A stretch of 64,000 nt of DNA. Origin: Niveispirillum cyanobacteriorum. Lineage in GTDB: Bacteria > Pseudomonadota > Alphaproteobacteria > Azospirillales > Azospirillaceae. The stretch is taken from contig NZ_CP025611.1 in assembly GCF_002868735.1 (NCBI RefSeq), positions 862,501 through 926,500 of the forward strand, in the 5' to 3' direction. The notes beneath the pieces are model-generated. The model was not told the DNA's origin. It made no database searches and saw nothing but the letters and a program-made list of their open reading frames with translations. Position numbers and translations under genes: made by a program. Shown one piece after another: positions 11,712 through 29,958 of this stretch (position 1 is its first letter; each line of letters starts with the position of its first letter).

Positions 11712-11814
11712 CCATTAAAAATGTAGAAAGCAGCAGGGGGCAGCGTGTAGGCTGCGAGCCATCCGGCGGTGGGCGACTTCCGCCGACGATCCCTTTTTGC
11801 GAAAGAGCGACAGC

Positions 11815-12405
11815 ATGGCGGGCAGCGTCAACAAGGTCATCCTCATCGGTAACCTGGGCAAGGAACCGGAAGTCCGGTCATTGCAGAATGGCGGCAAGGT
11901 CTGCACGCTGCGCATCGCGACGTCGGAAACCTGGAAGGACCGCGGCACGGGCGAGCGGCAGGAACGCACGCAGTGGCATAGCGTCGTGATCTTCAACGAA
12001 AATCTGGTCGGCGTGGCCGAGCGTTTCCTGAAGAAGGGCAGCAAGGTCTATATCGAGGGTCAGCTTGAGACCCGCAAGTGGCAGGATCAGCAGGGCCAGG
12101 AGCGCTACACGACGGAGGTCGTGCTGCGGCAGTTCCGGGGCGAACTGACCCTGCTGGATGGCCGTGAAGGCGGCGGTATGGGGGCCGGCGCTGGCGGCGC
12201 CAGCTATGATGACCGCGGCGGCGATTATGGCGGCGGCGGCTACGGTGGTGGCAGCAGCTACGGCGGTGGGGGCGGTGGCTCCTATGGCGGTGGCGGCGGC
12301 GATTACGGCGGCGGCAACCGTGGCGGCGGCTCACGCGGCGGCTCCGGTGGCGGCAGCAGCCGGCCCAGCCCCGCGGCCGATCTGGACGACGAAATTCCGT
12401 TCTAA
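11815..12405 (+). CDS. ssb: Single-stranded DNA-binding protein
   Basis: A 196-residue SSB. The OB-fold region (SVNKVILIGNLGKEPEVR at the start, WHSVVIFNENLVGVAERFLK, KVYIEGQLETRKWQD) is standard. A Gly-rich, Tyr-containing linker follows, and the acidic tip DLDDEIPF recruits repair and replication partners. It coats single-stranded DNA in replication, repair and recombination. The ATG at 11815 is preferred over one at 11797. No terminator follows directly: the island begins within about 130 bases, and a strong terminator that may once have been its own lies at 29923. Confidence 0.97.
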   Translation: MAGSVNKVILIGNLGKEPEVRSLQNGGKVCTLRIATSETWKDRGTGERQERTQWHSVVIFNENLVGVAERFLKKGSKVYIEGQLETRKWQDQQGQERYTTEVVLRQFRGELTLLDGREGGGMGAGAGGASYDDRGGDYGGGGYGGGSSYGGGGGGSYGGGGGDYGGGNRGGGSRGGSGGGSSRPSPAADLDDEIPF

Positions 12406-12536: not shown

Positions 12537-13796
12537 ATGCCGGGGTATCAGGTCCGAATGATCGTCATGGATCAGGGAGAGCGAATGCCTCTCATGATCG
12601 GTGAAGATGGCGTCCCGTTGTTCCGGACGACGGAGTGGATCGTGACGGCGCGGCGGGCAGCCAACCCCGCCGCCAACACCCTGCAAGCGAACTGCTACGC
12701 TCTCAAATTCCTCTATCTCTGGGCTGATGCCCAGGGCGTCGACATCGAGGCCAGGATGCACTCGGGCGACTATCTGCGCCCCAACGAGATCAGCAGCTTG
12801 GCCGCCGCCGCTCAGAAGCACCTCGATGAGCTAGACGTGGCGCCGCCCGCCAAGCCGGTCAAGCCGCCGAAGGTGGTCTCGCTGGAGCAGGTGCGGATGA
12901 AGGCGCCACGTCCTGTCCGGTCCGTTCAGAAGGACACGGCCGCCAATCGCCTTCGGACGGTCGCTGACTATCTCGCCTGGCTCGGGCAGATGGGAAATTT
13001 GGATCTCGACCTACAGACATCGGCCCTTCGCAAGGAAGCACTGGGCCAAATGATCGCCAACTTGACCACGACCATTCCGAAGACCCGGGGCAGGAACGTC
13101 GTCGGCAAGAGGGAGGCGCCGCCGCAGGACGTCATCGATCGCCTCCTGGCGGTGATCGAACCGGGGGCGCCGGAAAACCCTTGGGCGGATTTCGGCCTCC
13201 AAATCCGCAACAGGCTCCTAGTCCACATGTTCTACGGCCTTGGCATCCGGCGTGGCGAGGCGCTGGGCATCAAGATCACCGACCACATCGATTTTCGCCG
13301 CAAGAGGCTTCTGATCGCCAGAAATGCGGACGATGCGGAGGATCCACGACGCCAGCAGCCGCTGGCGAAAACCCGGGATCGGTGGCTGCCGCTGAAAGAC
13401 GGGCTGATCGACATGATCCAGGATTACATGATCCAGATCCGCCGCAAGGTGCCGAACGCGGCGAAGCATCAGTTCCTCTTCGTCTCTCATCAGTTGGGCA
13501 AGCCACTCAGCCTCAGTGGCGAGAGCCGGGTATTCGAGCAGTTGAGGCAGCGCACCGAAGTGCCCGATTACCTCACCACCCATGTCCTTCGCCACGCCTG
13601 GAACGACGCCTTCAGCCGTCTCATCGACGCCAAGGGCGTGGCGTCGGAGCGGGAGGCGCAACTGCGCTCTGAGATGATGGGATGGTCGCCGACTTCTGGG
13701 ACGGCCGCTACCTACAACCGCCGCAAAATCCGCGAGGATGCCGAGCGGTTCTTGCTGGAACATCAGAAGGTTCTTCTCCCGGGGGGCAGTGAATGA
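12537..13796 (+). CDS. ginA: Tyrosine recombinase/integrase, first gene of gin operon
   Basis: A 419-residue recombinase. An N-terminal SAM-like core-binding region spans about 30-150 and the catalytic domain about 190-415. The tyrosine recombinase residues are present: R238 in GLGIRRGEAL, H349, R352 and H353 in HVLRHAW, W383, and nucleophile Y393 in ATYNRRK. It should cleave and rejoin DNA at the island's att sites. Its stop overlaps the next start as ATGA. The ribosome site at 12537 is weak and an ATG at 12558 is possible. The symbol follows GInt nomenclature and rests on operon architecture. Confidence 0.8.
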   Translation: MPGYQVRMIVMDQGERMPLMIGEDGVPLFRTTEWIVTARRAANPAANTLQANCYALKFLYLWADAQGVDIEARMHSGDYLRPNEISSLAAAAQKHLDELDVAPPAKPVKPPKVVSLEQVRMKAPRPVRSVQKDTAANRLRTVADYLAWLGQMGNLDLDLQTSALRKEALGQMIANLTTTIPKTRGRNVVGKREAPPQDVIDRLLAVIEPGAPENPWADFGLQIRNRLLVHMFYGLGIRRGEALGIKITDHIDFRRKRLLIARNADDAEDPRRQQPLAKTRDRWLPLKDGLIDMIQDYMIQIRRKVPNAAKHQFLFVSHQLGKPLSLSGESRVFEQLRQRTEVPDYLTTHVLRHAWNDAFSRLIDAKGVASEREAQLRSEMMGWSPTSGTAATYNRRKIREDAERFLLEHQKVLLPGGSE

Positions 13797-15316
13797 ACAG
13801 CCATGTTTCAGTGAAGCCGCTCGCCGACCTGCCTTCATCCATCCGCAGCCGCGATGGCGCCGAAGTGTGCCTTGATGGTGATGTCTGGTATGTCACAGGA
13901 CCGTCTGCGGCCTATCAGTTTTCGTTTCGTCGCCTACGGGAATTTGCCTCAGATGAACTGGTAGCTTCCGCGAAAGCAGTCATCGTCCATTACATGGAAC
14001 GGCATTCTCTCGCGCACGCAAACAACATCATGGATAGGTTTGTTGCCTTCATCCGATTTGCAGGTAAGGCGGTCCCGCTCCAGAAGATCACGGCGCCAGA
14101 TGTCCTGTCCTATCGCGCAACGCTTGCCTCGAACACCGAATGGTATCTTGGAACCCTACGCGGTTTCTTCCGTAGTTGGGTGGATCTTCGTCTGGCTGGA
14201 CTGGATCCCGAGGTCATCAAGGTCCTGGACAAGGTTCGGCTCAAAGGGAACCGCAAGGGCGACGCAGTTCGAACAGCGGACCCAGAGAAGGGGCCGTTCA
14301 CCGAGATGGAGTTACAGGCCATCGTCACCGCCCTGAACGACGCCTTTGCTCATGACGAAATAGACATCGCTGATTACGTCTTGGTCCAGTTGTTCCTGGC
14401 TCTGGGCGCCCGCGCGATCCAGCTTGCGACCCTGAAGATTAGCGATTTTTCCGTCACCCAAGCGAGCAGTGGCGAGCGGGCGTACCTGATCCAGCTGCCA
14501 AGGGCAAAACAGCGAGGCAAGGAGCCGCGAGCCGAATTCAAGCCTCGTAGACTATCTGGAGACCTCGGGCGCCTAGTCGAAGCACATTGCGAAGCGACGA
14601 AGCGGGTTTGGGTAAACCTCGGCATACCGCTGGATCAGCTGCCGTTTTGGCCTAATCCAGAGAACGTCAACACCAGCGAAGGTCTTCTTCACCACAGTAC
14701 GGCTACCGATCTGAATAATCGGGTACAGTCGGTCTTTGATGTGTTGAAGGTTGTGAGCGAGCGGACTGGATTTTCTCTGATCGTCTCGACGCGGAGGTTT
14801 CGATATACCCTCGGCACCAGGGCCGCCCGTGAAGGTCTTTCCGAACTCGTCATCGCCGAAATTCTGGATCATTCCGACACCCAGAACGTGGGAGTTTATG
14901 TGGAGGCAGTGCCCGAGATCGTCGAGCGCATCGACAGGGCGATGGCGATGGAGTTGGCGCCGATGGCGCAGGCCTTTGTCGGATTGCTAATTGACGGGGA
15001 AGACCAAGCGGAACGAGCGGATGATCCTCGATCTCGGATTGTCACCCCCGGTGATCTGAAGCACCCGGTCGGTAGCTGCGGCAGCTACGGCTTCTGCGGG
15101 GCGATGGCACCTATCGCCTGCTACACCTGCCGGAACTTCCAACCCTGGTTGGATGGTCCCCATGAGCAAGTCCTGGAGCAGCTGCTCGCCGATCGACAGC
15201 GCATCATGGTGCAAACCGGCGACGCCACGATCGCCGCGATCAACGACCGTGTCATCTACGCCTGCGCCGAGGTCGTCCGCCTCTGCCAGGAGCGGATGGG
15301 AGAGGCTGCCGAATGA
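13793..15316 (+). CDS. ginB: Tyrosine recombinase/integrase with altered active site, second gin gene
   Basis: A 507-residue recombinase. R207 (ALGARAIQLATL), R337, H360 (ILDHSD) and nucleophile Y369 (VGVYVEA) fit the family. However, the usual HxxRH motif reads RRFRYT (334-339), so Arg and Tyr stand where the two histidines normally are. After the catalytic domain comes a cysteine cluster (C429, C435, C443, C446 in GSCGSYGFCGAMAPIACYTC), which looks like a metal site. It starts inside the stop of ginA (ATGA) and ends in the same way into ginC, so translation is coupled. Confidence 0.78.
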   Translation: MNSHVSVKPLADLPSSIRSRDGAEVCLDGDVWYVTGPSAAYQFSFRRLREFASDELVASAKAVIVHYMERHSLAHANNIMDRFVAFIRFAGKAVPLQKITAPDVLSYRATLASNTEWYLGTLRGFFRSWVDLRLAGLDPEVIKVLDKVRLKGNRKGDAVRTADPEKGPFTEMELQAIVTALNDAFAHDEIDIADYVLVQLFLALGARAIQLATLKISDFSVTQASSGERAYLIQLPRAKQRGKEPRAEFKPRRLSGDLGRLVEAHCEATKRVWVNLGIPLDQLPFWPNPENVNTSEGLLHHSTATDLNNRVQSVFDVLKVVSERTGFSLIVSTRRFRYTLGTRAAREGLSELVIAEILDHSDTQNVGVYVEAVPEIVERIDRAMAMELAPMAQAFVGLLIDGEDQAERADDPRSRIVTPGDLKHPVGSCGSYGFCGAMAPIACYTCRNFQPWLDGPHEQVLEQLLADRQRIMVQTGDATIAAINDRVIYACAEVVRLCQERMGEAAE

Positions 15317-17373
15317 CGACCGTCGTCCATTTCGTTCCGAATGCGCAGGCGACAGCCGAGGCCAATCTCGCCGCACTTATTAAGATCGCCAAGCCGTTGT
15401 TGAAGGCATATCCCGAGGTCTTGTCCTGGGAAGAGAACAATTGGGACCTGCGTGGGACCGTTCAAGTCAGTGGTATTGGTGATAGCAGAGTTGCCGCAGC
15501 GTTCACCTCCTTTGATTCAGCTAGAAAATCTCAAGGGCAACCTAAAGCCGTTTCAGGATGGATGTCTGAACCTTTCCGGAGCTTTGCCAAAGCCTACTTT
15601 CTGTACACCAGAGCGCTCGTCGGCAAGGTCCAACTGGCCCACCTCATGGCCTCGCTTAGGGTCCTGGAGAAGGCACTGATCGAGACCCACGGCGACTCAG
15701 CGATCCACCGAGTGACCCCGGTTATTTGCAATCGCGCTGTTGAACTGATCCGGGAGCGGTTTGAAGAAGCCACCGCGTATCGGGTTGGATGCGCCCTGGA
15801 ACGTCTTGCTGGATTCATGGTTGAGAACCGGCTCGCCAACCCGTTCAAATGGAATTGCCAGATTCGGCGCCCCCGCGAGATCCGAACCCGCGTGGGAAAG
15901 GCCGCCGATGAGGCGCGGTCGGCGTCAATGCCCTCCCAGGCCGCACTCGAAGCGTTGCCTCGCTGTTTCAACATCGCCGTCGAACCACGAGACATCATAG
16001 CGTCCTCGGTAGCCGCACTCCTTTGTACAGCACCTGATCGGATTGGCGAGGTGTTCGGCCTGCGGGCTAATTGCGAGGTCGAAGAAATACATAAGGGGAA
16101 GCCGATTTATGGGTTGCGGTGGCTCCCAGAAAAGGGCGCCGAACCGATGGTAAAATGGATCGCGCCGACCATGGTTGAAGTAGCCAAGGCCGCCATTGCA
16201 AAGCTCCGTGAAGTCAGCCGGCCGGCGCGAGAAATTGCCGCTTGGTACGAGCAGCATCCAGATCAGATTTATCTTCCACGGGGCACGGAGTACCTGCGCA
16301 CCAAGAAATATCTGCTGCTTGAGGAAGTCACTCAGATTCTTGGGTTAGCAGGTATCCAAGCGACGCGATCTTGGGTGAACGGCAACAACGTCCCGACCTA
16401 CGATCCGCCCACGGGAAAGCGGTCGAAACGGGTTCGCTTTGATGAACTCCAATCGGCAGTTCTGGCGAAGCTGCCCAAGGGCTTCCCAGTCATAGACAAG
16501 CGCACCGGGCTGAAATATTCCGAAGCACTAATTGTTGTCCGGCAGAATGAGATGCACGCCCAGCGGGGCACTATTCTGTGTTTGGTGGAGCCGGTGACCA
16601 CCGGGCACATCAACGACGCATTGGGCGGGAAAGAGGCAACTGAATCGATGTTCGACCGGTTTGGCTTCACCGAGTCTGATGGCAGCCGGATTAAGGTGCA
16701 TTCCCACCAGTTTCGCCACTGGCTCAACACATTGGCCCATCGCGGCGGCATGTCTCAGCTCGACATCGCCAAGTGGTCCGGCCGGAAGGACATTCGGCAA
16801 AACCAGGACTACAACCACATGGCGCCGGAAGAGTTTCTTGCGATGGCTCGTGACCTGACTATCGACGATAAGCACCTTTTCGGTGGCCTTGCAGAACTCG
16901 TCGCCAAGGCGCCGATCTCCCGCGACGAGTTCATGATGCTGGAATATCCGACGGCCCATGTCACCGAACTCGGGTTTTGCGTCCACGACTTTACGGCCTT
17001 GCCTTGCGAGAAGCACCGGGATTGCGTCCAGTGCAACGAGCACATCTGCGTTAAGGGCGACGGTGCTAAGACGGCCCGTATCAAGGAGCAACTGGCGCTC
17101 GCCGAGGCGCAGTTGGAACAGGCGAAGAAGGCGGCAGCCGAGGGCTATTACGGTGCCGAGCGGTGGCAGGAACACCACCAAGCCACCGTCGACCGGCTTC
17201 GTATCCTGGTTGGCATCCTCGACGATCCTGCGGTCCCGGCGGGCAGCCTGATCCGGCTAACCAACCCTAAGGAGTTCTCTCCGATCCGGCTGGCGGTCCA
17301 GGACAGGATGCTGATCGAAGGACCTGACAACGAGACTTTCAACGACTTGCAAGACCTGCTGGGAGGCGACTAA
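15313..17373 (+). CDS. ginC: Large tyrosine recombinase, third gin gene
   Basis: A 686-residue protein. A long N-terminal region (1-215) precedes the catalytic domain with R243 (TAPDRIGEVFGL), H465, R468 and H469 (HSHQFRHW), W488 and Y500 (QNQDYNHM). The C-terminal part has cysteines C556, C565, C571, C574 and C579 (CVQCNEHIC) and then a helical, Lys/Glu-rich stretch (about 585-640) that may be coiled coil. Large recombinases of this sort, with a Cys-rich extension, recall TnpB of Tn554. The gene overlaps ginB by ATGA and ginD by TAATG. Confidence 0.8.
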   Translation: MTTVVHFVPNAQATAEANLAALIKIAKPLLKAYPEVLSWEENNWDLRGTVQVSGIGDSRVAAAFTSFDSARKSQGQPKAVSGWMSEPFRSFAKAYFLYTRALVGKVQLAHLMASLRVLEKALIETHGDSAIHRVTPVICNRAVELIRERFEEATAYRVGCALERLAGFMVENRLANPFKWNCQIRRPREIRTRVGKAADEARSASMPSQAALEALPRCFNIAVEPRDIIASSVAALLCTAPDRIGEVFGLRANCEVEEIHKGKPIYGLRWLPEKGAEPMVKWIAPTMVEVAKAAIAKLREVSRPAREIAAWYEQHPDQIYLPRGTEYLRTKKYLLLEEVTQILGLAGIQATRSWVNGNNVPTYDPPTGKRSKRVRFDELQSAVLAKLPKGFPVIDKRTGLKYSEALIVVRQNEMHAQRGTILCLVEPVTTGHINDALGGKEATESMFDRFGFTESDGSRIKVHSHQFRHWLNTLAHRGGMSQLDIAKWSGRKDIRQNQDYNHMAPEEFLAMARDLTIDDKHLFGGLAELVAKAPISRDEFMMLEYPTAHVTELGFCVHDFTALPCEKHRDCVQCNEHICVKGDGAKTARIKEQLALAEAQLEQAKKAAAEGYYGAERWQEHHQATVDRLRILVGILDDPAVPAGSLIRLTNPKEFSPIRLAVQDRMLIEGPDNETFNDLQDLLGGD

Positions 17374-17834
17374 TGGCCCGGCATCTGACCGACGCAGATA
17401 TCGAAACCATCTGCGAGATGATAACCGGCTGGGATATCAAGACGCCACTGACTTGGCGGGAGATCGAATCCGCAGTCGAGGGGCGCCTCGGGCATCGATA
17501 CACGCGACAGGCTCTTGAGAAGCGCGAACGCATCAAAACGGCGTACACGACCCGCAGCAATGTTCTGAAGAACCTGCCGGAGCGGACTCAGAGGGGATCC
17601 GTCGAGCTACTTGCCGCCCAAACGCGCATAGCCAGCCTCAAGGCCGAGAATGAGCGGTTGAAGGTCGAGAATGAACGGCTGCTAGCCCAGTTTGTCCGTT
17701 GGCTCTACAACGCCACCGCTGCGGGTCTCACGAAAGAGACGTTAAACGGGGCATTATCAGGGATTGACCGCGAGAAGACGAATGGAACCGTCATCGACGA
17801 AATCCGGCGAAGCGGTCGGAAGAAGGAAGCCTAA
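17373..17834 (+). CDS. ginD: Small coiled-coil accessory protein, fourth gin gene
   Basis: A 153-residue basic protein without an enzyme motif. The N-terminal 70 residues (LTWREIESAVEGRLGHRYTR, then QALEKRERI) look like a helical DNA-binding region. Residues of about 80-106 (RIASLKAENERLKVENERL) form a clear heptad coiled coil, as in TnpC of Tn554. By the GInt model it is an essential cofactor of the three recombinases. The start overlaps the ginC stop (TAATG) and its own stop overlaps the next ATG in the same manner. Confidence 0.72.
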   Translation: MARHLTDADIETICEMITGWDIKTPLTWREIESAVEGRLGHRYTRQALEKRERIKTAYTTRSNVLKNLPERTQRGSVELLAAQTRIASLKAENERLKVENERLLAQFVRWLYNATAAGLTKETLNGALSGIDREKTNGTVIDEIRRSGRKKEA

Positions 17835-18307: not shown

Positions 18308-18477
18308 GCGCAACATTCCAGCATTTCATTACACTCAATGCAGTCATTATGAATAATTATCTCAATCTGAGATTGATACGAGATATCGAAGCCATTAGAT
18401 CACGCGATGCCCCTTTTCGGTCTCCGGCCACTCCAGGTATGGTATGGAATTGATGATGGTGAAGTTTGAGGGCAGTC

Positions 18478-18777: not shown

Positions 18778-18859
18778 AGCCGGGTCCTTGCTAAGGCCCT
18801 CGACGACTGGCAATTGTCTCCCACTTCGCCGGCATCATGGTTGGTCCAATGGTGACAAC

Positions 18860-18880
18860 CTGTGACACGTTTCACAGATG
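18860..18880. repeat. 21-bp direct repeat, left copy
   Basis: Identical to 22379-22399. The core CTGTGACACGTTTCACAG is an imperfect palindrome. The two copies flank the IS66-broken membrane-protein gene. Confidence 0.85.
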
Positions 18881-18905
18881 GAAGTGCTGAGGCGCTGCGG
18901 TCGCT

Positions 18906-19007: not shown

Positions 19008-20576
19008 TCAGGTGTTGACGGTTGGCTTCCAGTTCCACGGGAGCAGGTCTTGGAGACGGTTGGCGGCATATCCGTTGACCATGCGCTCCAGGATGTCGCG
19101 GAGGTAGGCATAGGGCTCGACGCCGTTGAGTTTGCAGGTCTCGACGAGAGAGGCGATTACCGCCCATCGGTTGCCCCCGCCCTCGGAGCCCGAGAACAGG
19201 CTGTTCTTTCTGCCGATTGTCACCGGGCGGATCGTCCGTTCCACAGTGTTGGTGTCCATCTCCACCCGGCCGTCGCCCAGATAGACGCGCAGCCCGTCCC
19301 AGCGGGCGAGCGCGTATCGGATCGCCTCGGCCAGCTTGGCGCGTTGCGGCAGGCGGCGGAGTTCCTGCTCGAACCAAGCCTTGAGATCGTCGACCAGCGG
19401 CACGGCATGGGCCTGTCGGGCCTCTCGGCGTTCTGCCGCCGTCCGCCCCCGGATGCGCTCCTCAATGGCATAGAGCTGGGCGATGCGGTGCAGGGCTTCA
19501 GCCGCGATCGGCGATCCGTCCTGCGCCAGGTCGTAAAAACGGCGGCGTGCGTGGCTCCAGCAGGCCGCGAGCACGACCTGCCCACCGGTGGTCAGCCGCT
19601 CGAACCCGGCATAGCCGTCGACCTGGAGCACGCCCCGGAACCCCCGCAGATGGTCGGCAGGGCGCTCGCCTTTGCGGTCGGGGGTGTAGAAGTAGACCAC
19701 GGCCGGCGGGTCCGGCCCCTGCCAGGGGCGGTCATCCCGGGCATAGGCCCAAAACCGGCCGATCTTCACCCGCCCGGCCCCGGGGTTCAGGGTCGGCATC
19801 GGCGTGTCGTCCGCGAACAGCTTAGGGGAGGCGAACACCGCCTTCGCCAACTCGGCATGCACCGCCTCCAACCACCAGCAACCCTGGCCGGCCCAGCCGG
19901 CCAGCACCGAGCGGTCGACCGGGAACCCATTGCGGGCCAGGATCTGGGCCTGCCGGTAGAACGGCAGGTGGTCGCAGTAGCGGCTGGTGAGGATATGGGC
20001 CAGCATCGCCGGTGTGGCCATGCCCTTGGCGATCGCCTTCTCCGGAGGGGGCGCTTGGTGCAGCGATCCGCAACCGCGACAGCCGTATTTCGGCCGGCGG
20101 ATGCGCAGGACCCGGACCTGGGCGGGCACGTAGTCGATCATCTTGGAGATGGTCTCCCCGGCCGGATGCAGGGCGCCACCGCAACAGGGACAGACGGCCT
20201 CCGCGTCGATGTCCGCCGGCTCCAGGGTGATGTCGTGATGGGGCAGATGATCGGGCAGGTCCCGGCCGCGGCGCACCGGTTCGGCCTCCACCGGCTCCGG
20301 CGTGCGTGCGGCGATCTTGGTCTCGAGCTGGGCGATATCGGCCTCGAGCTCCTCCAGTCCCAACTCCAACTGGTCGCTATCGAGCCGTTCGGAGCGGCGG
20401 CCATAGAGTGTGCGCTGCATCTGCTGGAGCCGCAGGCGCAGCCGCTCCATCTCCACCAGATCGGCCTTCTGGCGCTCGACAATATCGGCGAGATCGCGCA
20501 CCAGCTGCTGGAGCAGGACGGGATCGCCGGGCAGATTGTCGAGGTCGAGGCGCATGGTCGATTCTACCCCGGACAT
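19008..20576 (-). CDS. tnpC: IS66 transposase (TnpC, DDE)
   Basis: A 522-residue DDE transposase of IS66. Visible are an N-terminal leucine-zipper-like helix, a zinc-finger-like CPCCGG with a second CRGC, the catalytic-domain segments FADDTPMPTL and VLQVDGYAGFERL, and the C-terminal EMDTNTVERTIRPV, which supplies the acidic triad. It catalyses cut-and-paste transposition. An in-frame start further up at 20612 is possible. It lies downstream of tnpB. Confidence 0.95.
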   Translation of the reverse strand: MSGVESTMRLDLDNLPGDPVLLQQLVRDLADIVERQKADLVEMERLRLRLQQMQRTLYGRRSERLDSDQLELGLEELEADIAQLETKIAARTPEPVEAEPVRRGRDLPDHLPHHDITLEPADIDAEAVCPCCGGALHPAGETISKMIDYVPAQVRVLRIRRPKYGCRGCGSLHQAPPPEKAIAKGMATPAMLAHILTSRYCDHLPFYRQAQILARNGFPVDRSVLAGWAGQGCWWLEAVHAELAKAVFASPKLFADDTPMPTLNPGAGRVKIGRFWAYARDDRPWQGPDPPAVVYFYTPDRKGERPADHLRGFRGVLQVDGYAGFERLTTGGQVVLAACWSHARRRFYDLAQDGSPIAAEALHRIAQLYAIEERIRGRTAAERREARQAHAVPLVDDLKAWFEQELRRLPQRAKLAEAIRYALARWDGLRVYLGDGRVEMDTNTVERTIRPVTIGRKNSLFSGSEGGGNRWAVIASLVETCKLNGVEPYAYLRDILERMVNGYAANRLQDLLPWNWKPTVNT

Positions 20577-20624
20577 CGTCCATATTCCAGCCAAACCCCT
20601 GGCTTCCCTCATTTTTTCGGCCCG

Positions 20625-20978
20625 TTACCCGGCAACCGACGGGCCCCGCGCAGGCAAGGTCTGCCGCCATTCCAGCCCTTCGAGCAGCAGCGACAATTCC
20701 GCCGGCGTCAGCACCACACTGCCGCCCGGCGTGCGGGTCATTGGCCAAACGAACCGCCCCCGCTCCAGCCGCTTGGCAAACAGGCACATGCCGTTCTGGT
20801 CAGCGTAGAGGATTTTCAATCTTCCAGCACCTTTGCCTCGGAATATGTAGAGATGCCCGGCGAACGGGTCCTTGCCCAGGCTCTGCTGCACCATCAGCGC
20901 CAGCCCGTCGAACCCCCGGCGCATGTCGCAGGGCTCCAAGGCGAGATAGATCCGCACTCCGGCCGGAAGGGAGATCAT
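20625..20978 (-). CDS. tnpB: IS66 accessory protein TnpB
   Basis: A 117-residue protein with the family sequence (VRIYLALEPCDMRRGFDGLA, then LYIFRGKGAGRLKILYADQN, then CLFAKRLERGRFVWP). IS66 Orf2/TnpB is required for efficient transposition although its biochemical role is unclear. The ATG overlaps the tnpA stop (ATGA), so the two are coupled. It is unrelated to the RNA-guided nuclease also called TnpB. Confidence 0.95.
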   Translation of the reverse strand: MISLPAGVRIYLALEPCDMRRGFDGLALMVQQSLGKDPFAGHLYIFRGKGAGRLKILYADQNGMCLFAKRLERGRFVWPMTRTPGGSVVLTPAELSLLLEGLEWRQTLPARGPSVAG

Positions 20979-21565
20979 CGCGGCCCCTCCAGAACCCCCA
21001 GCACCCCCAGCACCCGGCGCAGCGCGTCGGCGTCGACGTGCTGGTCAACCCGGAGCCGGAGCCCGCCGGCCAACTCGATCTCGATCAGCCCACCCCCTGT
21101 TGGCACCGGAGTCACCGCCGGGGGCGGGGTCGGCTCCCCGCGGGCCACCTCCACCGGTGCAAAGACGGGCAGCGGATCGGCCGGGCCGACCAGGCGGCGG
21201 CGCCAGCGGAACAGCAGACTGGGATCGACACCGCGCCGTCGGGCCACCAGCGATACGCTCATGCCCGGCTCGAAGGTCTCGGCGACGAGCCGCTGTTTCT
21301 CGGGTTCCGACCAGCGGCGCCGGTGGGGCGACGCCGTCAGCACCTCCATCACCATCGGAGCGCTCGCCGTCATAGGGACAGCACCAGGACCATCCCTATG
21401 ACCCGGAGCGCTCTCCCCATCCGAAGCCGCCAGCCGGCGCGACCAGCGCCCCAGCGCCCACCGGCCGATCCCGTGCGCCGCGGCATAGTCAGCCAACGAC
21501 GTTCCGCTTTGCCGCCACGCCGCGACGTGCGGCCGCCAAAAAGCCTCGCGATCCGATCTCGCCAC
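20975..21565 (-). CDS. tnpA: IS66 accessory protein TnpA
   Basis: A 196-residue helix-turn-helix protein. The central segment (RWSEPEKQRLVAETFEPGMS, then VSLVARRRGVDPSLLFRWRR) is the transposase-type HTH of IS66 Orf1. The extra N-terminal portion contains a second similar motif (TSLADYAAAHGIGRWALGRW), as in longer members. It probably binds the element ends or regulates expression. First gene of the element; its end overlaps tnpB. Confidence 0.92.
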   Translation of the reverse strand: MARSDREAFWRPHVAAWRQSGTSLADYAAAHGIGRWALGRWSRRLAASDGESAPGHRDGPGAVPMTASAPMVMEVLTASPHRRRWSEPEKQRLVAETFEPGMSVSLVARRRGVDPSLLFRWRRRLVGPADPLPVFAPVEVARGEPTPPPAVTPVPTGGGLIEIELAGGLRLRVDQHVDADALRRVLGVLGVLEGPR

Positions 21566-21631: not shown

Positions 21632-22270
21632 TCAGAACCCGCTTACGAAAAGTGCCAGTATCAACAAGGTGATCGCCACAACGAGTGACACGATGAGTAC
21701 CGTGACCGTCGTGATCAGCGGTGCCATCAACAACGATGCGGTTGCTGCCAAGGTGGCGTAGGCAAGACCGGAGATCATGCCAGACCGGGCTATCCCTGAC
21801 ACGAGATGGCATAGGGTTGTCGCAGTAAGGAAGAGAATGGCGACCAGTGGGCCCAGGTGTGTCGCGCCGAAATACGATAGTACCGTGCCTGGGATACTAA
21901 TCACTGCCGCGCCGAAGAATACGAGGCGGCCCATATCCCAGGCACCGTTCCCATCCTCGCGCAGTATGATCCTGGCGGAACCGTAAGCAACCATCATGCC
22001 GACCAAAGCCAGAGCCGTGGCGTAGCCGAGCGTCCACCAGAAGCCTATAGTGTCTGTAGCCTGGACAATATAGGCCCGGACGCCGTCCACCCAGGTGCCG
22101 AAGTTAGCGTAACCGCTTGCAATGGCCCGCCCAATCGGCGCGAGTAGCCAATATGCACCGCCCAGCATCCAAGATGCGGCATCGCCAAGAAACCCGCTCA
22201 CCGATTCATGAATCTCTACCGCGGTACTCTGCGTGCCTGACTGTTGAGACGAATTCGACATGTTACCCAT
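21632..22270 (-). CDS. Multi-pass membrane protein, C-terminus replaced by IS66 insertion
   Basis: A 212-residue protein with hydrophobic stretches at about residues 35-55, 75-100, 115-150 and 165-208, so about four to five membrane passes. Family not recognised. The last four residues (VSGF) and the stop come from the IS66 end; before insertion the protein ended about 18 residues further on (see 18906-18982). The loss is small and the truncated product could still be made. It is on the same strand as, and downstream of, the giant STAND gene, with a 400-base gap. Confidence 0.6.
   Translation of the reverse strand: MGNMSNSSQQSGTQSTAVEIHESVSGFLGDAASWMLGGAYWLLAPIGRAIASGYANFGTWVDGVRAYIVQATDTIGFWWTLGYATALALVGMMVAYGSARIILREDGNGAWDMGRLVFFGAAVISIPGTVLSYFGATHLGPLVAILFLTATTLCHLVSGIARSGMISGLAYATLAATASLLMAPLITTVTVLIVSLVVAITLLILALFVSGF
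21647..21654. repeat. IS66 target-site duplication, right copy
   Basis: GAAAAGTG, identical to 18975-18982, directly outside the right inverted repeat of the IS66 element. Confidence 0.95.
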
Positions 22271-22670
22271 ATTTCTCCTGTACTCAGGTCCGGCACACTG
22301 TGGCTATCGTACGGTGACACGGTGTGACAGGTTTCTACAACTCGAGCATCGTGCGAGATCAGCCCGACCGGTCGCCAGCTGTGACACGTTTCACAGATGC
22401 TGCTACTGTGGCCGAGAGAGGCCACGTGCTATGGTGATAGCTCGCGTCGACCGCAAAGCGCCCCAGTATGGTTATTCCCATGGATAGCAGGGCGTATAAA
22501 GGGAGACCTTGTCGAATATGTCCAAAATCCGTCATCTTCTAACATTTTCTTCCACCTCGTGTGCCGGAACAGAATGAGCAATCATATGTGAAACACAACC
22601 GATTTTGGCGCTCCGTATTGCGCGGCGCGGGGAGCGAAGCGAGTAGAGCCCGGCCAGCGGAGCCGGTGCG
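22271..22670. other. Intergenic region between membrane-protein gene and STAND gene
   Basis: 400 bases without a convincing gene. It holds the right copy of the 21-bp repeat (22379-22399), a related half-site (GTGACACGGTGTGACAGG near 22313), and a purine-rich GC segment near 22620-22670 just after the STAND gene stop. Small frames here have no protein-like character. Confidence 0.6.
22379..22399. repeat. 21-bp direct repeat, right copy
   Basis: Identical to 18860-18880, in the same orientation. It lies about 110 bases upstream of the membrane-protein gene start, a position that would suit an operator, but the other copy lies just past the original end of that gene. Confidence 0.85.
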
Positions 22671-25600
22671 CTACTGACGCTTCTTTCCGCGTGATCGCGC
22701 ATTGCGCGTTGGTTTCTTATCCTGCGACAGCTCTTTGATGGCTCGAAGCCGTCTGGCGAAATTGTGTACGTCGTACTGACTGAGTTTCAACACGGCGTCT
22801 GCTTGCGCCGGCGTCGGCTCGATTGCGCGAACGTTGAGTTTTTTGTCTAAAACAGCAACAGTGAATGAGTGGGTAAATTTTCCTTCTTCGCCCGCTTCGT
22901 CGCTGTATCGTTTCTTCTCTTGATAGCGTTCGAGTTTGACCAGAACGATAAGGTCACGATCCAGATCCGTCAGAAGCTTCGATAGGAACGCGCGGTCGCA
23001 ATAGAGTGCATGGCCGGTACGCCGCTTTGCGCTTTCGCCGTCGCCTTGCCAGCCGCCCCACGCATTGTATCGAAACGCTGTCGAACCACTCTTCTGTTGC
23101 CATGCATGCGACCAAGGCTCGGTCGCAGCAAGTTGGAAGTGTGCGATGACGGATGCTGCGGGCCGATAGATGGACAGCGCCGACGGAGCACCAAACGGAT
23201 CGCGTTCATCCAAATTCTCCGACCGCTGGAGATGCGTAATCCATGGCTCACAAGGTTGCATCTCATCGCGACGGAAACGCGGATCTTCCTCGTCATGCGG
23301 CTCATGAAAGGGCAACCACATGTGAGACCCAGGTGATGTTGCAACGGCGAGGGCCGTCAACTCTGCTTGCTTAGGATCGACTAGGCTGGACATGATACTG
23401 CACTCCACCCCATCCGGCGAGTTCCACCGTGCTTGAACGGCAATGTCCTCTGGCAACTGTAGCCCTATGCCTGCAAGAGACAGCAGCAACGTATTGTCGG
23501 CAATTGGCAGATCTCGTTCCGCTTCATCCCCTACGCCCGTTCTCAGATCATTCGACGCAACCAGGGGATAGCGCCCGGTGCCATCAGATATCCAGTAACC
23601 GTCCTTGCGCGTGATGCGGTACTCTGACAGCCAATCCTGCCAGGGATTGTCATAATAGCTCTCATCCGTAACGGGACGCTCCAAAAGCAGGCGTCCTCCA
23701 ACTAACGCCAGCGCATGCCAAGCAAGATAAGTGCCGTGCGATTGATACGCTTCCTCAGTTGGCCGATAATAGCCGCGCTGACTGTATGGTTTGTTCCTGC
23801 CGGAAAAGTCGTTCATCGATGTAACGCTGGGCGCCCATGCTCTAATCCATTCATGGCATAGGTCGTTGATCCGCCACTTCGGAAGCCCGAACACTCTGGC
23901 CAATTTGTCGATCTGGTATTTCTCGAAGTCATAGTCGAAGAAGAAGCGCGGCTCAGACTCTGGAACATCTTTTGGCCGCTCCCACGGAAAATCCCGGACG
24001 GCCTTGTTGCGCGTCTTGGCACGGGGAAACGGCGAAACGTTCACCTTACCGATCCGTGCCCGAAGCTTCATCGCGCTCGCATCACGTCGGCCCACGAGAC
24101 AATGCCGCAAGGCCCCACATGCTGCCTCTCGAAGTCCGACATGCGGGAAGGTATCATCGAAGGCCACAGCTTCCAGGTCGGATTGAAAACGCAAGACTTC
24201 GGACGGACTATCTAGCGCGATGCGGGCTATAGCCAACAAAAACCATAGCTGTGCGTTCAGTTTGAAGAACGGGAGCGACCGGTCCTGAAACGCCCCGGCA
24301 TCGGCAGCGCCGAACAGTGTGAACATCCGCGCGATGACGGACCAATGCCCATGCCTGGCCATCGCTTGAACTGCATGCGCTGCCCGCCAGCGTTCCTTGG
24401 CAACCGGTGACCCGAGTCCGAACCATAGCAACCCGGCGGCAACTTGGTCCGGGTCCGTTCCGGCATTCAGCTCTTCGCGCCAAGGTCCGTCGCCGATGTC
24501 GTCCGCAAGTCTTGCTGCACCACTGTCGAGTAGACGGGCAAGTGCATTACGTGGCGCGGCCTCATCGGCGCGTTTTGAGAGGATTGTGGCAGTGCTTAGC
24601 CATGTCATCGCCGCGGCATCGAGTTCTCTGGTCGTCGCTGCCTCGACCAGTGCGATGGCGAGTTCGTCAATCGGTGTGCCCGTCACCTCCGACAGTTTGT
24701 GGATGTCGGAAGCAAAGCCCCATTTCTTTCCAAGCAGGTCTTCGGCATGTTCGCGAACAAGTCGAAGACCGAAACCGGTCAGAGACGCCAGTTGCGTCGG
24801 CGAGTCTTTTGTCCACTCGTCCTTGACAGCTTGCATCAAGTCATTCTTTTCGGAGATCTTCAAATTTCGAGCCGATACGATAGCTTCCAAGTGCTTGGCC
24901 CGATCCGCATAGGCAACGCGATCACGTAGCGACTTATAAACTTGGGATTTGTTGACCTGCCAACCGGGCACAGCTTCCAATTTTTCCACAAAGCGCTCGA
25001 ACGACGCAGCATCGGCTGGATCGGTAGCGGCCAATGCCTCTTTCAGCATGACTTGCCGGGCCGCCTCTTCTTTCTTACGACTAATATCCAGGCCGATGTG
25101 ACTCGGCACGGATGGGCGGCTTTCGGTATCGGCTTTTCGCGGTAACGTGCTGCGCCGTTCGAAAGATTCAAGACGCTCGACAAACCTAGCAGCAATCTTC
25201 GGATCGGAATCGAAGGCTCTACGGAGTTCGTAAAGATAGTGGCTGGATAAGCGACCGGGGAATGAGCGCTCGTATTGATTGAGTGCTTCATGCAGAATCG
25301 CGTCAGTAGCACCTCGCTTTAGCAAGGCCTTGACGAGATCGTCCCAGCCCCAATGCCACACAGGCTGCGGATCAACCAGCCAAAGAAGTGACACGACCGA
25401 CGACGGGCTCAATGCGCCGTCGTTCAGTAGATGTGTGAGTGCAGACGGCAATGTCAGGCTCAGATCAACTTTGTCGCGATCATGCCAGCGGGCAATCTGT
25501 GCAAGGTAGGCAGCACCCATGACCCGCGAAAAAGCCCTCGCCGTCAACGGCCAATGCCATCTATGCGAGTCATAGACATTGATCTCGCAAATCTTGGCAA

Positions 25601-28600
25601 GGCGAAGCGCCAGCGGCGGTGGCAAACCAGCGCCGCGCACGGTGGCCGCAAATTCCAAGAGTTCGTAGGTGAATTCGTAGTCGCCCGAGCCTATGGCGTC
25701 GAGTTCCTTCAATCCGCGTTTGAAGACCGATGCGGCTTCCGCGCGATTGGCGGGCAGAAGCGCGCGTGACAGTCGGGCGAACAATTGGCTGCGATATTGT
25801 ACTTCGTCTTCGCGCTCAATTAATCGGACAGCCAACACGGCCAGACTCCCAGCAAGACTGTGACAGTCGCGCTGCTCCGCGAGCCGTTTGACAAATCCGA
25901 TCACAATTTCGGGCGCCAGGATTTCGCATGCCTCCAAACAATCAGCCAATTTCTGGGCGGTGACCGCCGTGAGCAGATCGAGCGCTGTGAAGAGCTCGAG
26001 CGCGCATCGCATGTAGAGGGCATTTGCAAATCGCACCTGATCACGCGGTACATGCAAACCGCGTTCGCTGGTATTCGTCTGCTGCGTTCTCCATGCGTCA
26101 AGGAATGCAGAGCTCGCGACCTTCCTTTCACCGGGTTTTACAGCCGCGATCATGGTCGTAAGCTGTCTCACCAATGCAAGGAGAGGCACGATACCGCGAG
26201 AAATCCTTTCTGATACGTAATACCGCTCCGATGACGACAGTGTGCTTTTCTTCCGTCGTTCTTCGATTTCCGCCGTTGTGTTGTCCTTGGTCGTTTCCAG
26301 TTCCTTGAGGCGCTGATCCAACAATTCCCGCTGCGCCTTGTCCGTCGAAGGCCGTGGGGCGTCCTCGACCAACACCCAAAGTTCCTGTGGCAGACAGTCG
26401 AAGAAGTCGGCTACGCGCGTCTCGGTGACGCAACGGGCGGCGAGGCCAAGCGCGAACGGTACGAGCTGCTCGACATGCCACGCTTCACGCAGCAACCATA
26501 TGCGATAACGTTCGGTTGCAGCGACCAGCAATGTCCCATTCAGTTCCCTCGCCATGCCGAGATTCGCCATTCGGATGGCGCACCGCATCAATGCCTTGCG
26601 GTATGTGTCGTCGTGCTGCCTGCTACTGAATTCCTCAGGGAGATCCTTGGCGGTACCCAGCTTTGCCGCCACCTTCTTCATCAACGACCGTGCTTGTGGC
26701 CTGGAAGCAAAGCTGGGAAAGTTCGCGAACGATGCGACAATCAATGCCGGAGGCACCTGAGCCAAGGAAACAACTCTAACCAGCGTCTTCGCAAGGTCAG
26801 GCAGGTTGCCGAATGCTTCGGTCGCCGCGCAATGTTCAAACAAGCGGTTTGCAATCAGGAACCCGTAGAAGGGCTTCCAGCGGGAGATGTACCTCGCAAG
26901 CTCCTGCGCTTTGCCCTTGGCGAACAGATAGAAGGCAATCGAGGCAAAATCGCTGTATTCGGGACCACCTGTCCGGCGTGTCTCCTCATCTTGTTGTTGG
27001 AGCCATCGGTGCCAGTCATCCGCCCTGACGGCATGCCCATATGCCTCCGGAGCATCGCCATCGGCGATATAGGCCGTCGCCAATCGAGCGTGACGTGTTC
27101 CGGGCCAGCCGGTGCGTGCTTCGAACAGACGCCGCAGCGCCTCGGGGTCGCCGAGACCGACCACGAGGTCAGGCTGTTCGAGCAGATAATCCTCTCCGCG
27201 CTCGTCAACGATCACGAGTGCGGCTAGCTCGACCAGGAGATCGACGGTGGCGCTGAAATCCTTATCCTTGGCGGCCGCTCCCACAGCCGTCCGCAGCCTA
27301 TTGAGCCGAATAGCACGTTTTGCCAGATCGCTGTCGAGTTCAGCCGGGAATCGCGTGTCGAATGCTAGAGCACGCAGTTGATCGGTCCGTCCCATCGCAA
27401 AGAGCAGCGCAGGAAGAGACCGGGCCGCATAAACCGATGATCCCTGTGAGCTGGTCAAACGTGTCGCGACGTCTTCCAGCAGCGAGAGTTGTTGCCCGTA
27501 GGATTGCCGTACCAATGTTTCCGTCGGCTCGTCGCGGAAGATGAGCCCGTGGCGTGTACGCTCCAGAAGTGGCGAGAGGTCTGCTGCGAAGCTTTCCACT
27601 TCGGAACCAGCAATTCCGAAGGCTGCCGCTATTTCGTCGACCGGGACCGGAGGGGGAAGTACCGAAAGGGCGCAAAGAAACGCTGCAACTTCCTGGCGCG
27701 TGCTGCCCTTGTCGTCGGCCAGGCGTATCGCCTTCTCGATACGTTGGCGGATGAGATCGTTCAGATCAATAGCAGCGGCTCCGGTATCGACTTCGGCCAG
27801 GGATCGATCCGGTTCAATCAGATTGGCCATCACCCGGGGATTGCCGTTCGAACGGCGGTGAATGGCTTCGATCTGGGAGGTCGTGGCCTCTGGACGCCGC
27901 TTCTTGATAAAGGTCTGGCTTTCGGAGATCGAGAATGCGCTGAGCGCGAAATCCTTGCACTGGCTCCGGCCTATCGCCAGCGCACGGCGCTCGGGCCGCG
28001 CTGTCGCGATACACACGAGACCATCGACGGAGAGCGAAGGGTAAGACAAACTCTCAAGCAACATCTTCGGAAATGAGACCTCCCCCCGGTCGTGGGCCTC
28101 CATTGCGGCGTTGTCGGCGGCGTCGATGATGACAATCAGACGCGCCGCAGCGCGGATACGCCGCAGGGCCTCAATCGACTGTGAGAAACGCTTGAGACTC
28201 AGACGGACCACCTCTGTCGGATCGGTAGCGCCAGGAAGGATGGGATCGCACAGGCCACGACATGCGAGTTCATTGACGATGTGCATCAATCCCTGCTGTG
28301 GGCGATGCCGCACATCAAGCGGGGAACGGTAAGCGCCACCGCCAAAGCAATCGAATATGACCACTTCGTCGGTTTCGGCCAATCGAGTTGCAGCGCTCTG
28401 CAGGAAGACGGTTTTACCGACGCCGCCGGCGGCATGAACAATCCATAGGCTTGAGCTGGCCAGTCCATCGAGGAATTGGTGCAGTTGTTCGCGTTCGACG
28501 ACCGGACCTGATTCAGCAAAAGCCTGCGGAGTGGGGAGGAGGTCGCGCTCGTGGGCAATCCCGAGTTCTGCCAGCACGTCGATCTTGGTGATGATGTTGT

Positions 28601-29309
28601 TGTGCTGACCGGCATAACCGGCCTTGTTGCGCACCAACTGCCGAAGCTCACCCAGCCTAGCGCGTGCAATGGCGTCACTCGAAGCCGACCAGTCGGCAAT
28701 GATTCGCGCATTGCCCTTTTCGACTATACGCAGATCGCCACCTTGACCAAAGAGAGACAGCTTGGCCGCAAACACCTTGCGTTGTTCGCCACTCAAAGGA
28801 ATCGTAGCTAAAAGATCGTCGTACTGTGCGCGGATCTTTTTATTCGACGGTACGGTCCCTTCTGCCAGAGAAGAGACGGCACAGATTAGTTCAGGACTGA
28901 TGGGTCGATTAGTGTAGATCGTGTAAGAGACCTTACCTGCCACGTTCGACCGGTCAGGTCTTGATAAGAAGGACGCTTCTGATTTTGCAAATTTTTCAAG
29001 CGTCTTGGCAGCATCTGAGGCGAGAAAGTTGGTTGTCCTTTTTGCAATCGAGTATTTAAATTGTGCTATTTCAATGCGCGTCGCATCTCGGAAATTTGGC
29101 ACCGAACCATAGTAAAAGGTAGCATCCGCGATTTCGATAGTCGCCTGACTGGCACTCATCTGGTCTTCAACAGACAGACCTTCCACAGCAATCCCGCATA
29201 GCTCGTCGCGCGGTAACAGCAACGCCAATGCGCGCCTCGCCAACCAAGCTTCGTGGTATTGGTGCCCATCCCGTGAGGCGCGTACTTTGTCGATAGCGCT
29301 ATCTGTCAT
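22671..29309 (-). CDS. Giant STAND NTPase with N-terminal nuclease-like domain; candidate antiphage protein
   Basis: A 2212-residue protein. The N-terminal region (about 1-150) has a restriction-endonuclease-like pattern: E43, D62 in IEIADATFYYG, and Q83-x-K85 in IAQFKYS, resembling the D-QxK of Cap4/DUF4297-type nucleases. Residues of about 270-500 form a P-loop NTPase: Walker A AAGGVGKT (293-300), Walker B LIVIIDAADN (391-400), and a TARPERR sensor-like segment near 436-442. The remaining 1700 residues are helical and repeat-like, as expected for a target-sensing array. This order (nuclease, NTPase, long sensor) is that of Avs-like STAND defence proteins, which detect a phage protein and then cut DNA. 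AAGGAG lies 6 bases before the ATG. The defence role is inference; no experimental family name is assigned. Confidence 0.72.
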   Translation of the reverse strand: MTDSAIDKVRASRDGHQYHEAWLARRALALLLPRDELCGIAVEGLSVEDQMSASQATIEIADATFYYGSVPNFRDATRIEIAQFKYSIAKRTTNFLASDAAKTLEKFAKSEASFLSRPDRSNVAGKVSYTIYTNRPISPELICAVSSLAEGTVPSNKKIRAQYDDLLATIPLSGEQRKVFAAKLSLFGQGGDLRIVEKGNARIIADWSASSDAIARARLGELRQLVRNKAGYAGQHNNIITKIDVLAELGIAHERDLLPTPQAFAESGPVVEREQLHQFLDGLASSSLWIVHAAGGVGKTVFLQSAATRLAETDEVVIFDCFGGGAYRSPLDVRHRPQQGLMHIVNELACRGLCDPILPGATDPTEVVRLSLKRFSQSIEALRRIRAAARLIVIIDAADNAAMEAHDRGEVSFPKMLLESLSYPSLSVDGLVCIATARPERRALAIGRSQCKDFALSAFSISESQTFIKKRRPEATTSQIEAIHRRSNGNPRVMANLIEPDRSLAEVDTGAAAIDLNDLIRQRIEKAIRLADDKGSTRQEVAAFLCALSVLPPPVPVDEIAAAFGIAGSEVESFAADLSPLLERTRHGLIFRDEPTETLVRQSYGQQLSLLEDVATRLTSSQGSSVYAARSLPALLFAMGRTDQLRALAFDTRFPAELDSDLAKRAIRLNRLRTAVGAAAKDKDFSATVDLLVELAALVIVDERGEDYLLEQPDLVVGLGDPEALRRLFEARTGWPGTRHARLATAYIADGDAPEAYGHAVRADDWHRWLQQQDEETRRTGGPEYSDFASIAFYLFAKGKAQELARYISRWKPFYGFLIANRLFEHCAATEAFGNLPDLAKTLVRVVSLAQVPPALIVASFANFPSFASRPQARSLMKKVAAKLGTAKDLPEEFSSRQHDDTYRKALMRCAIRMANLGMARELNGTLLVAATERYRIWLLREAWHVEQLVPFALGLAARCVTETRVADFFDCLPQELWVLVEDAPRPSTDKAQRELLDQRLKELETTKDNTTAEIEERRKKSTLSSSERYYVSERISRGIVPLLALVRQLTTMIAAVKPGERKVASSAFLDAWRTQQTNTSERGLHVPRDQVRFANALYMRCALELFTALDLLTAVTAQKLADCLEACEILAPEIVIGFVKRLAEQRDCHSLAGSLAVLAVRLIEREDEVQYRSQLFARLSRALLPANRAEAASVFKRGLKELDAIGSGDYEFTYELLEFAATVRGAGLPPPLALRLAKICEINVYDSHRWHWPLTARAFSRVMGAAYLAQIARWHDRDKVDLSLTLPSALTHLLNDGALSPSSVVSLLWLVDPQPVWHWGWDDLVKALLKRGATDAILHEALNQYERSFPGRLSSHYLYELRRAFDSDPKIAARFVERLESFERRSTLPRKADTESRPSVPSHIGLDISRKKEEAARQVMLKEALAATDPADAASFERFVEKLEAVPGWQVNKSQVYKSLRDRVAYADRAKHLEAIVSARNLKISEKNDLMQAVKDEWTKDSPTQLASLTGFGLRLVREHAEDLLGKKWGFASDIHKLSEVTGTPIDELAIALVEAATTRELDAAAMTWLSTATILSKRADEAAPRNALARLLDSGAARLADDIGDGPWREELNAGTDPDQVAAGLLWFGLGSPVAKERWRAAHAVQAMARHGHWSVIARMFTLFGAADAGAFQDRSLPFFKLNAQLWFLLAIARIALDSPSEVLRFQSDLEAVAFDDTFPHVGLREAACGALRHCLVGRRDASAMKLRARIGKVNVSPFPRAKTRNKAVRDFPWERPKDVPESEPRFFFDYDFEKYQIDKLARVFGLPKWRINDLCHEWIRAWAPSVTSMNDFSGRNKPYSQRGYYRPTEEAYQSHGTYLAWHALALVGGRLLLERPVTDESYYDNPWQDWLSEYRITRKDGYWISDGTGRYPLVASNDLRTGVGDEAERDLPIADNTLLLSLAGIGLQLPEDIAVQARWNSPDGVECSIMSSLVDPKQAELTALAVATSPGSHMWLPFHEPHDEEDPRFRRDEMQPCEPWITHLQRSENLDERDPFGAPSALSIYRPAASVIAHFQLAATEPWSHAWQQKSGSTAFRYNAWGGWQGDGESAKRRTGHALYCDRAFLSKLLTDLDRDLIVLVKLERYQEKKRYSDEAGEEGKFTHSFTVAVLDKKLNVRAIEPTPAQADAVLKLSQYDVHNFARRLRAIKELSQDKKPTRNARSRGKKRQ

Positions 29310-29758
29310 AGCTCTCCTTGTCCGTCCTCTTTCCGAGATCTAGGGCGAGGGCTGATCCGAAATCGCAAAACGTGTTTGGTCAATCAAGTAATAGCTGAAG
29401 TTGCGTATGGCTAGTGGTGCAAGCCAGTGGATGTCTGCTTTGAGATCGGGAATCAAATTGCAGATTTCTACCATCTACACGCATAAGCGGACTGTCCGCA
29501 ACCGGTCCCACCTCAGTTGTACGGCGACGGCCAGCAGGGTATTCCACATATTGGCCAATAGACGGGGCTTATGCTGATGGGCCGACAAGGCCGGCCTACT
29601 GGTATCATGAGAACTCATCGAGCCGTATCAGCGGCTACCAGACGCCCGTCGAATTGTTAGAACGCTTGCTTTCGTCTTCGACGAAACGAGGGTGTGCCCT
29701 CGTGCTCCCCTTACGCCTTGCCAGCCACGAATTAAAATTCGAGTCTGACAAGGCGTCC

Positions 29759-29871
29759 AGTGTAAACATTTTGGACCAAAATTTGAGTTTTATTTACATT
29801 TTTATAGAATCAAACAGAGAAGAAATTATAATAATATATGGATATCAATGACTTGTGATATTGTTTACACT
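29759..29871. repeat. Inverted repeat in the AT-rich island end
   Basis: AGTGTAAACA (29759-29768) and its exact inverse TGTTTACACT (29862-29871) bracket the AT-rich tail. A related 9-mer GAGTGTAAA occurs at 12526-12534 just before ginA, inverted relative to TTTACACTC at 29864-29872. These may be recombinase-binding arms of the att region. Confidence 0.55.
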
Positions 29872-29922
29872 CATGTGGTGCACATAACCCTTTTGATCCA
29901 GGTCCTCGGTTGAATCAGATAA

Positions 29923-29950
29923 GGCGGCCCTTTCTCGGGGCCGCCTTTTT
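29923..29950 (+). terminator. Rho-independent terminator at the right flank
   Basis: Stem GGCGGCCC/GGGCCGCC with a short TTTCTC-containing loop and then TTTTT on the plus strand. No plus-strand gene precedes it here except the distant ssb beyond the island, so it may be the displaced ssb terminator. It could also partly stop the convergent DUF4331 transcript, though the T-run on that side is poor. Confidence 0.8.
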
Positions 29951-29958
29951 CATTTGTG

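Follow-up and report, generated by a model that had tools for sequence, protein, structure and literature searches.

An intact nuclease-STAND-sensor gene

The window analysed here (64,000 nucleotides of Niveispirillum cyanobacteriorum, contig NZ_CP025611.1, positions 862,501 to 926,500) carries on its minus strand a very long Avs3-type gene, the cargo of a genomic island. The gene occupies 22671-29309 as a single uninterrupted frame of 2212 codons, with AAGGAGAG directly 5' of its ATG; these coordinates and this length agree with the initial annotation, from which the strand was absent. The gene and its parts are as follows.

22671..29309, minus strand: Avs3-type nuclease-STAND-sensor gene, 2212 residues, stop codon included in the coordinates (intact frame; PADLOC Avs3a; PDB 8dgc)
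28860..29309, minus strand: residues 1-150, PD-(D/E)xK (Cap4/DUF4297-like) nuclease region with E43/D62/Q83/K85 (residue conservation; structure model and Foldseek match to 8dgc)
27750..28499, minus strand: residues 271-520, STAND NTPase core with Walker A G296-G298-K299 and Walker B D396/D399 (residue conservation; weak Pfam NACHT and AAA matches, below cut-off)
26832..27749, minus strand: residues 521-826, region after the NTPase (minimum dN/dS along the protein; 26% identity to the SeAvs3-like protein L007; within the first stretch matching 8dgc)
25857..26831, minus strand: residues 827-1151, part of the sensor in which identity to SeAvs3 is not recognisable (outside both phmmer stretches matching 8dgc; dN/dS 0.10-0.13)
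22899..25856, minus strand: residues 1152-2137, C-terminal sensor alignable with SeAvs3 (second phmmer stretch matching 8dgc, 180.5 bits; low-confidence model)
22674..22898, minus strand: residues 2138-2212, poorly conserved C-terminal tail (6% identity to L007, 63% to L002)

The Walker A motif reads GGVGKT and includes K299, and Walker B reads IIDAADN, with D396 and D399. Together with E43, D62, Q83 and K85 these three residues are invariant in 10/10 aligned rows, the window's own included. In an alignment of 25 rows, again counting its own, K299, D396 and D399 are kept throughout and the four nuclease residues in 23; the two rows without them are the homologues L040 and L050, each with a different N-terminus. 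The initial annotation had read a PD-(D/E)XK-like N-terminus (E43, D62, Q83-x-K85), a complete P-loop NTPase with Walker A and B, and an overall Avs-type layout of nuclease, STAND domain and sensor, and it was right in the residues as well as in the domain order.

Kinship with SeAvs3

The PADLOC models returned Avs3a (E = 3.4e-212) and one other listed model, weak and unrelated, and on this result the other Avs types were rejected. The only strong match among solved structures was SeAvs3 (PDB 8dgc, E = 3e-141), in two phmmer stretches covering residues 8-826 and 1152-2137. The Klebsiella plasmid protein L007, which matches 8dgc over its full length (4396 bits), was used as a stand-in for SeAvs3 in identity comparisons. 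When the window clade (9 rows) was aligned profile to profile with the SeAvs3 group (7 rows), 2030 columns were aligned (E = 4e-194), which shows homology with SeAvs3 from end to end at the profile level. Three traits of the Avs3a family were found in the protein: whole-length kinship, an N-terminal nuclease with its active-site residues, and a STAND NTPase with Walker A and B.

The N-terminal structure prediction that the initial annotation had asked for gave the same answer. A model of residues 1-597, built from five aligned sequences (mean predicted local distance difference test score, pLDDT, 72.9), matched 8dgc first in Foldseek (E = 3.4e-33, query template modelling (TM) score 0.64), and a plant resistosome (6j6i), Avs4 (8dgf), Cap4 (7yia) and LmuA followed at E = 5e-6 or worse amid many AAA-type entries. 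The protein is therefore a divergent Avs3, a variant of a known defence family and not a new kind of system; the view of the initial annotation that no named type could be assigned is superseded by the PADLOC, NCBIfam, 8dgc and Foldseek results.

Several known systems invite comparison. SeAvs3, of AVAST type 3 and solved in 8dgc as Avs3 bound to the terminase of phage PhiV-1, shares with the window protein the order of nuclease, STAND and sensor, the nuclease and Walker residues and the end-to-end profile alignment. It differs in that the window protein is only 24% identical to the near-copy L007, is unlike it over residues 827-1151, has no Avs3b partner and is 2212 rather than 2092 residues long. 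Avs4 (8dgf, bound to the PhiV-1 portal) resembles the N-terminal half at the level of the fold, but the match is far weaker (E = 7e-6 against 3e-33 for Avs3) and no Avs4 model was among the PADLOC matches. The nucleases Cap4, LmuA and DUF4297 (of CBASS, Lamassu and HerA-DUF4297, respectively) share the PD-(D/E)xK domain, and the first two appear in the Foldseek list; the systems they belong to have their own, different sensing modules and no STAND-TPR body of the size of the window protein. DUF4297, SeAvs3 and Cap4 are likened to one another in one study (PMC11291478).

Selection and divergence along the protein

Identity to L007 is 33, 27, 35 and 26% in successive segments of residues 1-826 and 18, 15, 30 and 23% in those from 1152 to 2137. 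Compared with L002, to which the protein is 76% identical, the ratio of non-synonymous to synonymous substitution rates (dN/dS) is 0.078 overall, a rough value because dS is near 2 and saturated. Equally rough values by segment are lowest for residues 521-826 (0.04) and highest for 827-1012 (0.13), 1013-1151 (0.10), 1401-1560 (0.12) and the tail (0.13). The gene is under purifying selection.

A clade without detected Avs3b

At L007, L008 and similar loci the Avs3 gene is accompanied by a second gene, named avs3b by NCBI. A profile of Avs3b, built up from four seed members to 12, found this partner at 12/27 loci (26 distinct, L045 and L051 being the same), always directly after the Avs3 gene, and found none beside the window gene. 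A 23-protein tree places the window protein, with support 100/100, in a clade of eight rows with L002, L003, L004, L005, L006, L038 and L043, and the profile detected Avs3b next to the gene at 0/8 of these loci, although L038 offers only 295 bases there. A search with an 8-row Avs3b alignment likewise found none in the genomes of the window (G000), L043 (G779), L038 (G734) and L002 (G821), nor in the four plasmid records of L003-L006, for which the plasmid record only, not the whole genome, was covered; the two records that did match (W05 and W06) are query rows and so give no independent control. A fusion of Avs3b into the long protein was considered and rejected: its profile gave E = 0.48 in the clade alignment and nothing in the Avs3 frames. 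The short open reading frame (ORF) that follows the gene at 21632-22270 was also tried as Avs3b, with no match. The single-gene system proposed in the initial annotation therefore fits.

Absence of Avs3b is not unique to the window clade: L042, L044, L046 and L051, outside it, also have none. At L054, a viral-contig locus (34% identity), no Avs3b was found among ORFs of at least 100 residues, and L055 has one. At least three changes are needed to place presence and absence on the tree, and loss in the window clade would be the simplest reading of this unrooted tree. Four homologues are absent from it: L009, with its frame in two pieces; L052, interrupted by insertion sequences (IS); L053, which is partial; and L045, the same protein as L051. 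The rows of the tree are stop-to-stop frames, several with residues before the true start left untrimmed, and long rows (L044, L042 and L006) and uneven composition make the deep branching unsure.

In the one paper collection that was searched, the term Avs3b did not occur and, judged by titles and the beginnings of abstracts, none of 30 of its 33 papers with Avs3 or AVAST type III terms concerned such a partner-less variant. What is new here is the divergent, partner-less Avs3 branch; the defence family and the kind of island are already known. A formerly unnamed giant protein becomes a testable Avs3, and a well-supported Avs3 branch without detected Avs3b offers a natural comparison for the role of Avs3b.

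Proposed mode of action and alternatives

We propose, with a probability of roughly 0.8, that the gene, as cargo of a GInt-like island, encodes a divergent form of Avs3 in which an N-terminal PD-(D/E)xK nuclease is joined to an antiviral STAND NTPase, and that it acts through a SeAvs3-like chain of events, which is likely because the catalytic residues are kept, the kinship runs end to end and selection is purifying. By analogy with SeAvs3, the protein would rest inactive in the cell until a conserved protein of an infecting phage, most probably the large subunit of its terminase, docks on the C-terminal sensor; the STAND ATPase would then form an oligomer that pairs the nuclease domains, and these would cut phage and host DNA and so halt the infection. 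The large terminase as trigger is less sure than the overall mechanism, since the sensor is conserved only in part.

Avs sensing of phage proteins is reportedly the subject of a paper by Gao et al. 2022. For SeAvs3, published work describes how a viral protein on the sensor leads to tetramers in which nuclease domains are paired and DNA cutting is switched on (PMC11291478, PMC12198126). Avs1-Avs4 are described, in a further study, as cutting phage and host DNA on sensing the large terminase, the portal or another phage protein (PMC12931631).

Several results weigh against our proposal. The protein scored 801.9 bits on the Avs3a equivalog model NF041816 of NCBIfam, whose curated cut-off is 2800, and so is a relative of Avs3a well outside the annotated core. 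Of the sensor, residues 1152-2137 align with 8dgc and residues 827-1151 do not; the two segments of the latter are only 9 and 10% identical to L007, and target recognition may have changed because of this. Four sequences went into the model of residues 1014-2212, and with a mean pLDDT of 55.4 it is too poor for placing a binding face. Foldseek again put 8dgc first for it (E = 5.3e-19), but with a TM score of 0.13, so that this match supports kinship and not a shape. The model consists mostly of paired helices, as the initial annotation had supposed for some 1700 residues, but the last ~255 residues contain strands, at the low confidence of this model. In addition, the annotated AVAST type 3 pair is incomplete here, with Avs3b missing both at the locus and in the whole genome, and the few other window proteins scanned with PADLOC (the 21632-22270 ORF, a ginD-like protein and the product of ORF 5974-6711) gave no defence match.

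The alternative that survives best, though we think it unlikely, is an Avs3-type defence with the same nuclease output whose sensor is made for a phage protein other than terminase, such as the portal or another packaging or early protein. Residues 827-1151, unlike SeAvs3 and evolving faster, would suit it, and Avs proteins as a group sense terminase, portal, Ksap1 or JADA (PMC12931631); on the other hand, residues 1152-2137 still align with SeAvs3, and the profile alignment spans the protein. About as tentatively, we suggest that the window clade may represent a separate, one-protein Avs3 that has lost Avs3b, has rebuilt its sensor at 827-1151 and now recognises, with no helper, a changed range of packaging proteins: other terminases, perhaps ones encoded by defective prophages or gene transfer agents.

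It seems improbable that the STAND nuclease serves in housekeeping or for the mobile element itself instead of in phage defence, for instance by defending the island from competing elements or by killing cells from which it has been lost: the gene does sit on a mobile island, and a phage trigger is here a presumption drawn from SeAvs3, but the protein is close kin of SeAvs3 and homologue loci, from a hand-picked set, carry other defence genes. Least probable of all is a decaying, non-functional gene carried along by the island, as two broken homologues (L009 with a frame break, L052 with insertion sequences) and an IS66 element in the island might suggest, given 2212 intact codons, kept catalytic residues and a dN/dS of ~0.08.

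A GInt-like island at ssb

The Avs3 gene is carried by a GInt-like island that adjoins the 3' end of ssb (11797-12405) and extends from ~12406 to ~29890 (~17.5 kb), which agrees with the mobile island that the initial annotation had described around its cargo gene. Immediately downstream of ssb begins a run of three recombinase genes and one further, small gene. The Avs3 gene is the last before the right end, with an IS66 element and a membrane-like ORF between it and the gin genes.

12393..12405, plus strand: left attachment site, approximate, over the end of ssb (end of the ssb frame; comparison with L016)
12537..13796, plus strand: ginA-like tyrosine recombinase (Pfam PF00589, E = 1.3e-16)
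13793..15316, plus strand: ginB-like tyrosine recombinase (PF00589, E = 5.1e-7)
15313..17373, plus strand: ginC-like tyrosine recombinase (position; weak PF00589 match, 14.3 bits, below the 27.1 cut-off)
17373..17834, plus strand: ginD-like small protein of 153 residues (position and size; weak coiled-coil-like Pfam matches below cut-off)
19008..21565, minus strand: IS66 element of three genes inside the island (Pfam IS66 families)
21632..22270, minus strand: membrane-like ORF of 212 residues, downstream of the Avs3 gene and distinct from Avs3b (no family match in PADLOC or Pfam; not picked up by the Avs3b profile; membrane-like by eye only)
29740..29887, no strand: AT-rich right end of the island (sequence reading; 29001-30000 has 49.7% GC, against 55-68% in neighbouring kilobases)
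29888..29900, plus strand: right attachment site, approximate; the displaced trailer and terminator of ssb come next (match to the L016 trailer; terminator-like stem at 29921-29947)

The right end is placed by means of L016, a congeneric genome that lacks the island at this site: the 63 bases after its ssb, with the terminator-like stem among them, match window positions 29888-29950 (86%, E = 3e-16). This trailer was seen in 1/9 congeneric loci, the other eight giving no match at the junction. A pattern search for the right end was set aside, as nothing turned up but ssb itself and, at 60742, a site with three mismatches (chance expectation 0.76). The Avs3 gene and L002 both have a GC content of 0.61 at third codon positions, compared with 0.82 for the window's uvrA, as expected for a newcomer.

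GInts are defined by a gin operon, cargo, a short AT-rich 3' end and imperfect flanking repeats (PMC5385486). Bardaji et al. placed 6/11 further GInts at ssb, with attL over the gene end, and in Pseudomonas GInts the excision of a circle depends on all four gin genes (PMC5385486). The island resembles these in its operon of three recombinase genes and a small fourth (ginC scoring below the Pfam cut-off and ginD lacking a clear family), in its site-specific insertion at the end of ssb, with imperfect flanking repeats and a relative that has the empty site, and in its short AT-rich far end. It differs in its cargo, Avs3 and the IS66 element, and the likeness of the gin genes is one of order and families. 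Here an Avs3 is carried by a GInt-like island at ssb; carriage of defence systems by GInts has already been reported in Escherichia coli (PMC10121019).

Relatives of the ginB-like protein were found in 135 plasmid records, the best (61%) in Azospirillum sp. TSH58. At the loci of other Avs3 homologues that were searched (with L001, L015 and L027, of the window's own genome, set aside), gin genes gave no tblastn match at E = 1e-3.

Three minor features were noted in the window. A 43-base direct repeat (77% identical, 18851-18893 and 22370-22412), which surrounds the near-palindrome CTGTGACACGTTTCACAG (a palindrome spotted by eye), has one copy upstream of the membrane-like ORF and is possibly an operator. 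The ORF at 18466-18777, which may be what is left of another cargo gene, begins with a start that we take to resemble a SIS-domain protein and continues with unrelated residues. Beside uvrA, the gene at 5974-6711 (245 residues) lies in a kilobase of 41% GC amid 60-70% GC and looks like recent DNA; it had no PADLOC match and one weak Pfam match below cut-off.

Distribution and homologue loci

All distribution counts refer to matches at E = 0.001 and include the window's own genome. The single protein was matched in 1/59 relatives and 4/385 genomes of the class, and alignment A1 in 8/398 genomes of the phylum and 3/82 of the family. Matches were found in 18/72,556 plasmid records and in 0/50,697 phage records; among IMG/VR viral contigs the alignment query gave three loci and the single protein none, and a scan of genome contigs for kin gave one locus. 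The genome matches G627 (a 558-residue frame), G569 (38 model positions) and G221 (94 residues) were set aside.

Ten hand-picked neighbouring proteins from six homologue loci were scanned with PADLOC, a choice that does not amount to a rate. Eight gave strong matches, to pAgo_II (L002), LmuB and PifA (L004), PDC-M62A (L005), OloA (L006), PDC-M01A and PDC-M01B (L048) and AbiH (L050); one match was weak and one protein had none. At L004 and L005 the gene that follows had a weak or no PADLOC match, and at L006 it had none. The initial annotation had named a lack of defence neighbours in homologues as a finding that would count against it, and several loci of this hand-picked set do carry other defence genes.

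The homologues L040 (genome G719) and L050 (Shewanella baltica plasmid pSBAL17502) have Avs3b and an N-terminus that lacks the nuclease residues and is seemingly unrelated, a sign that the effector domain of an Avs3 body may have been swapped. The Avs3 gene also gets lost: L009, on a Halomonas plasmid, has a frame break, and L052, on a Rhizobium leguminosarum plasmid, is split by elements of the IS481 and IS3 families. Finally, the host genome encodes a large-terminase ATPase domain at G000:C2:57367-57885 (L057; PF03354, 93.9 bits), so a prophage or related element may be present in the host, and Avs3 would need to tolerate its terminase.

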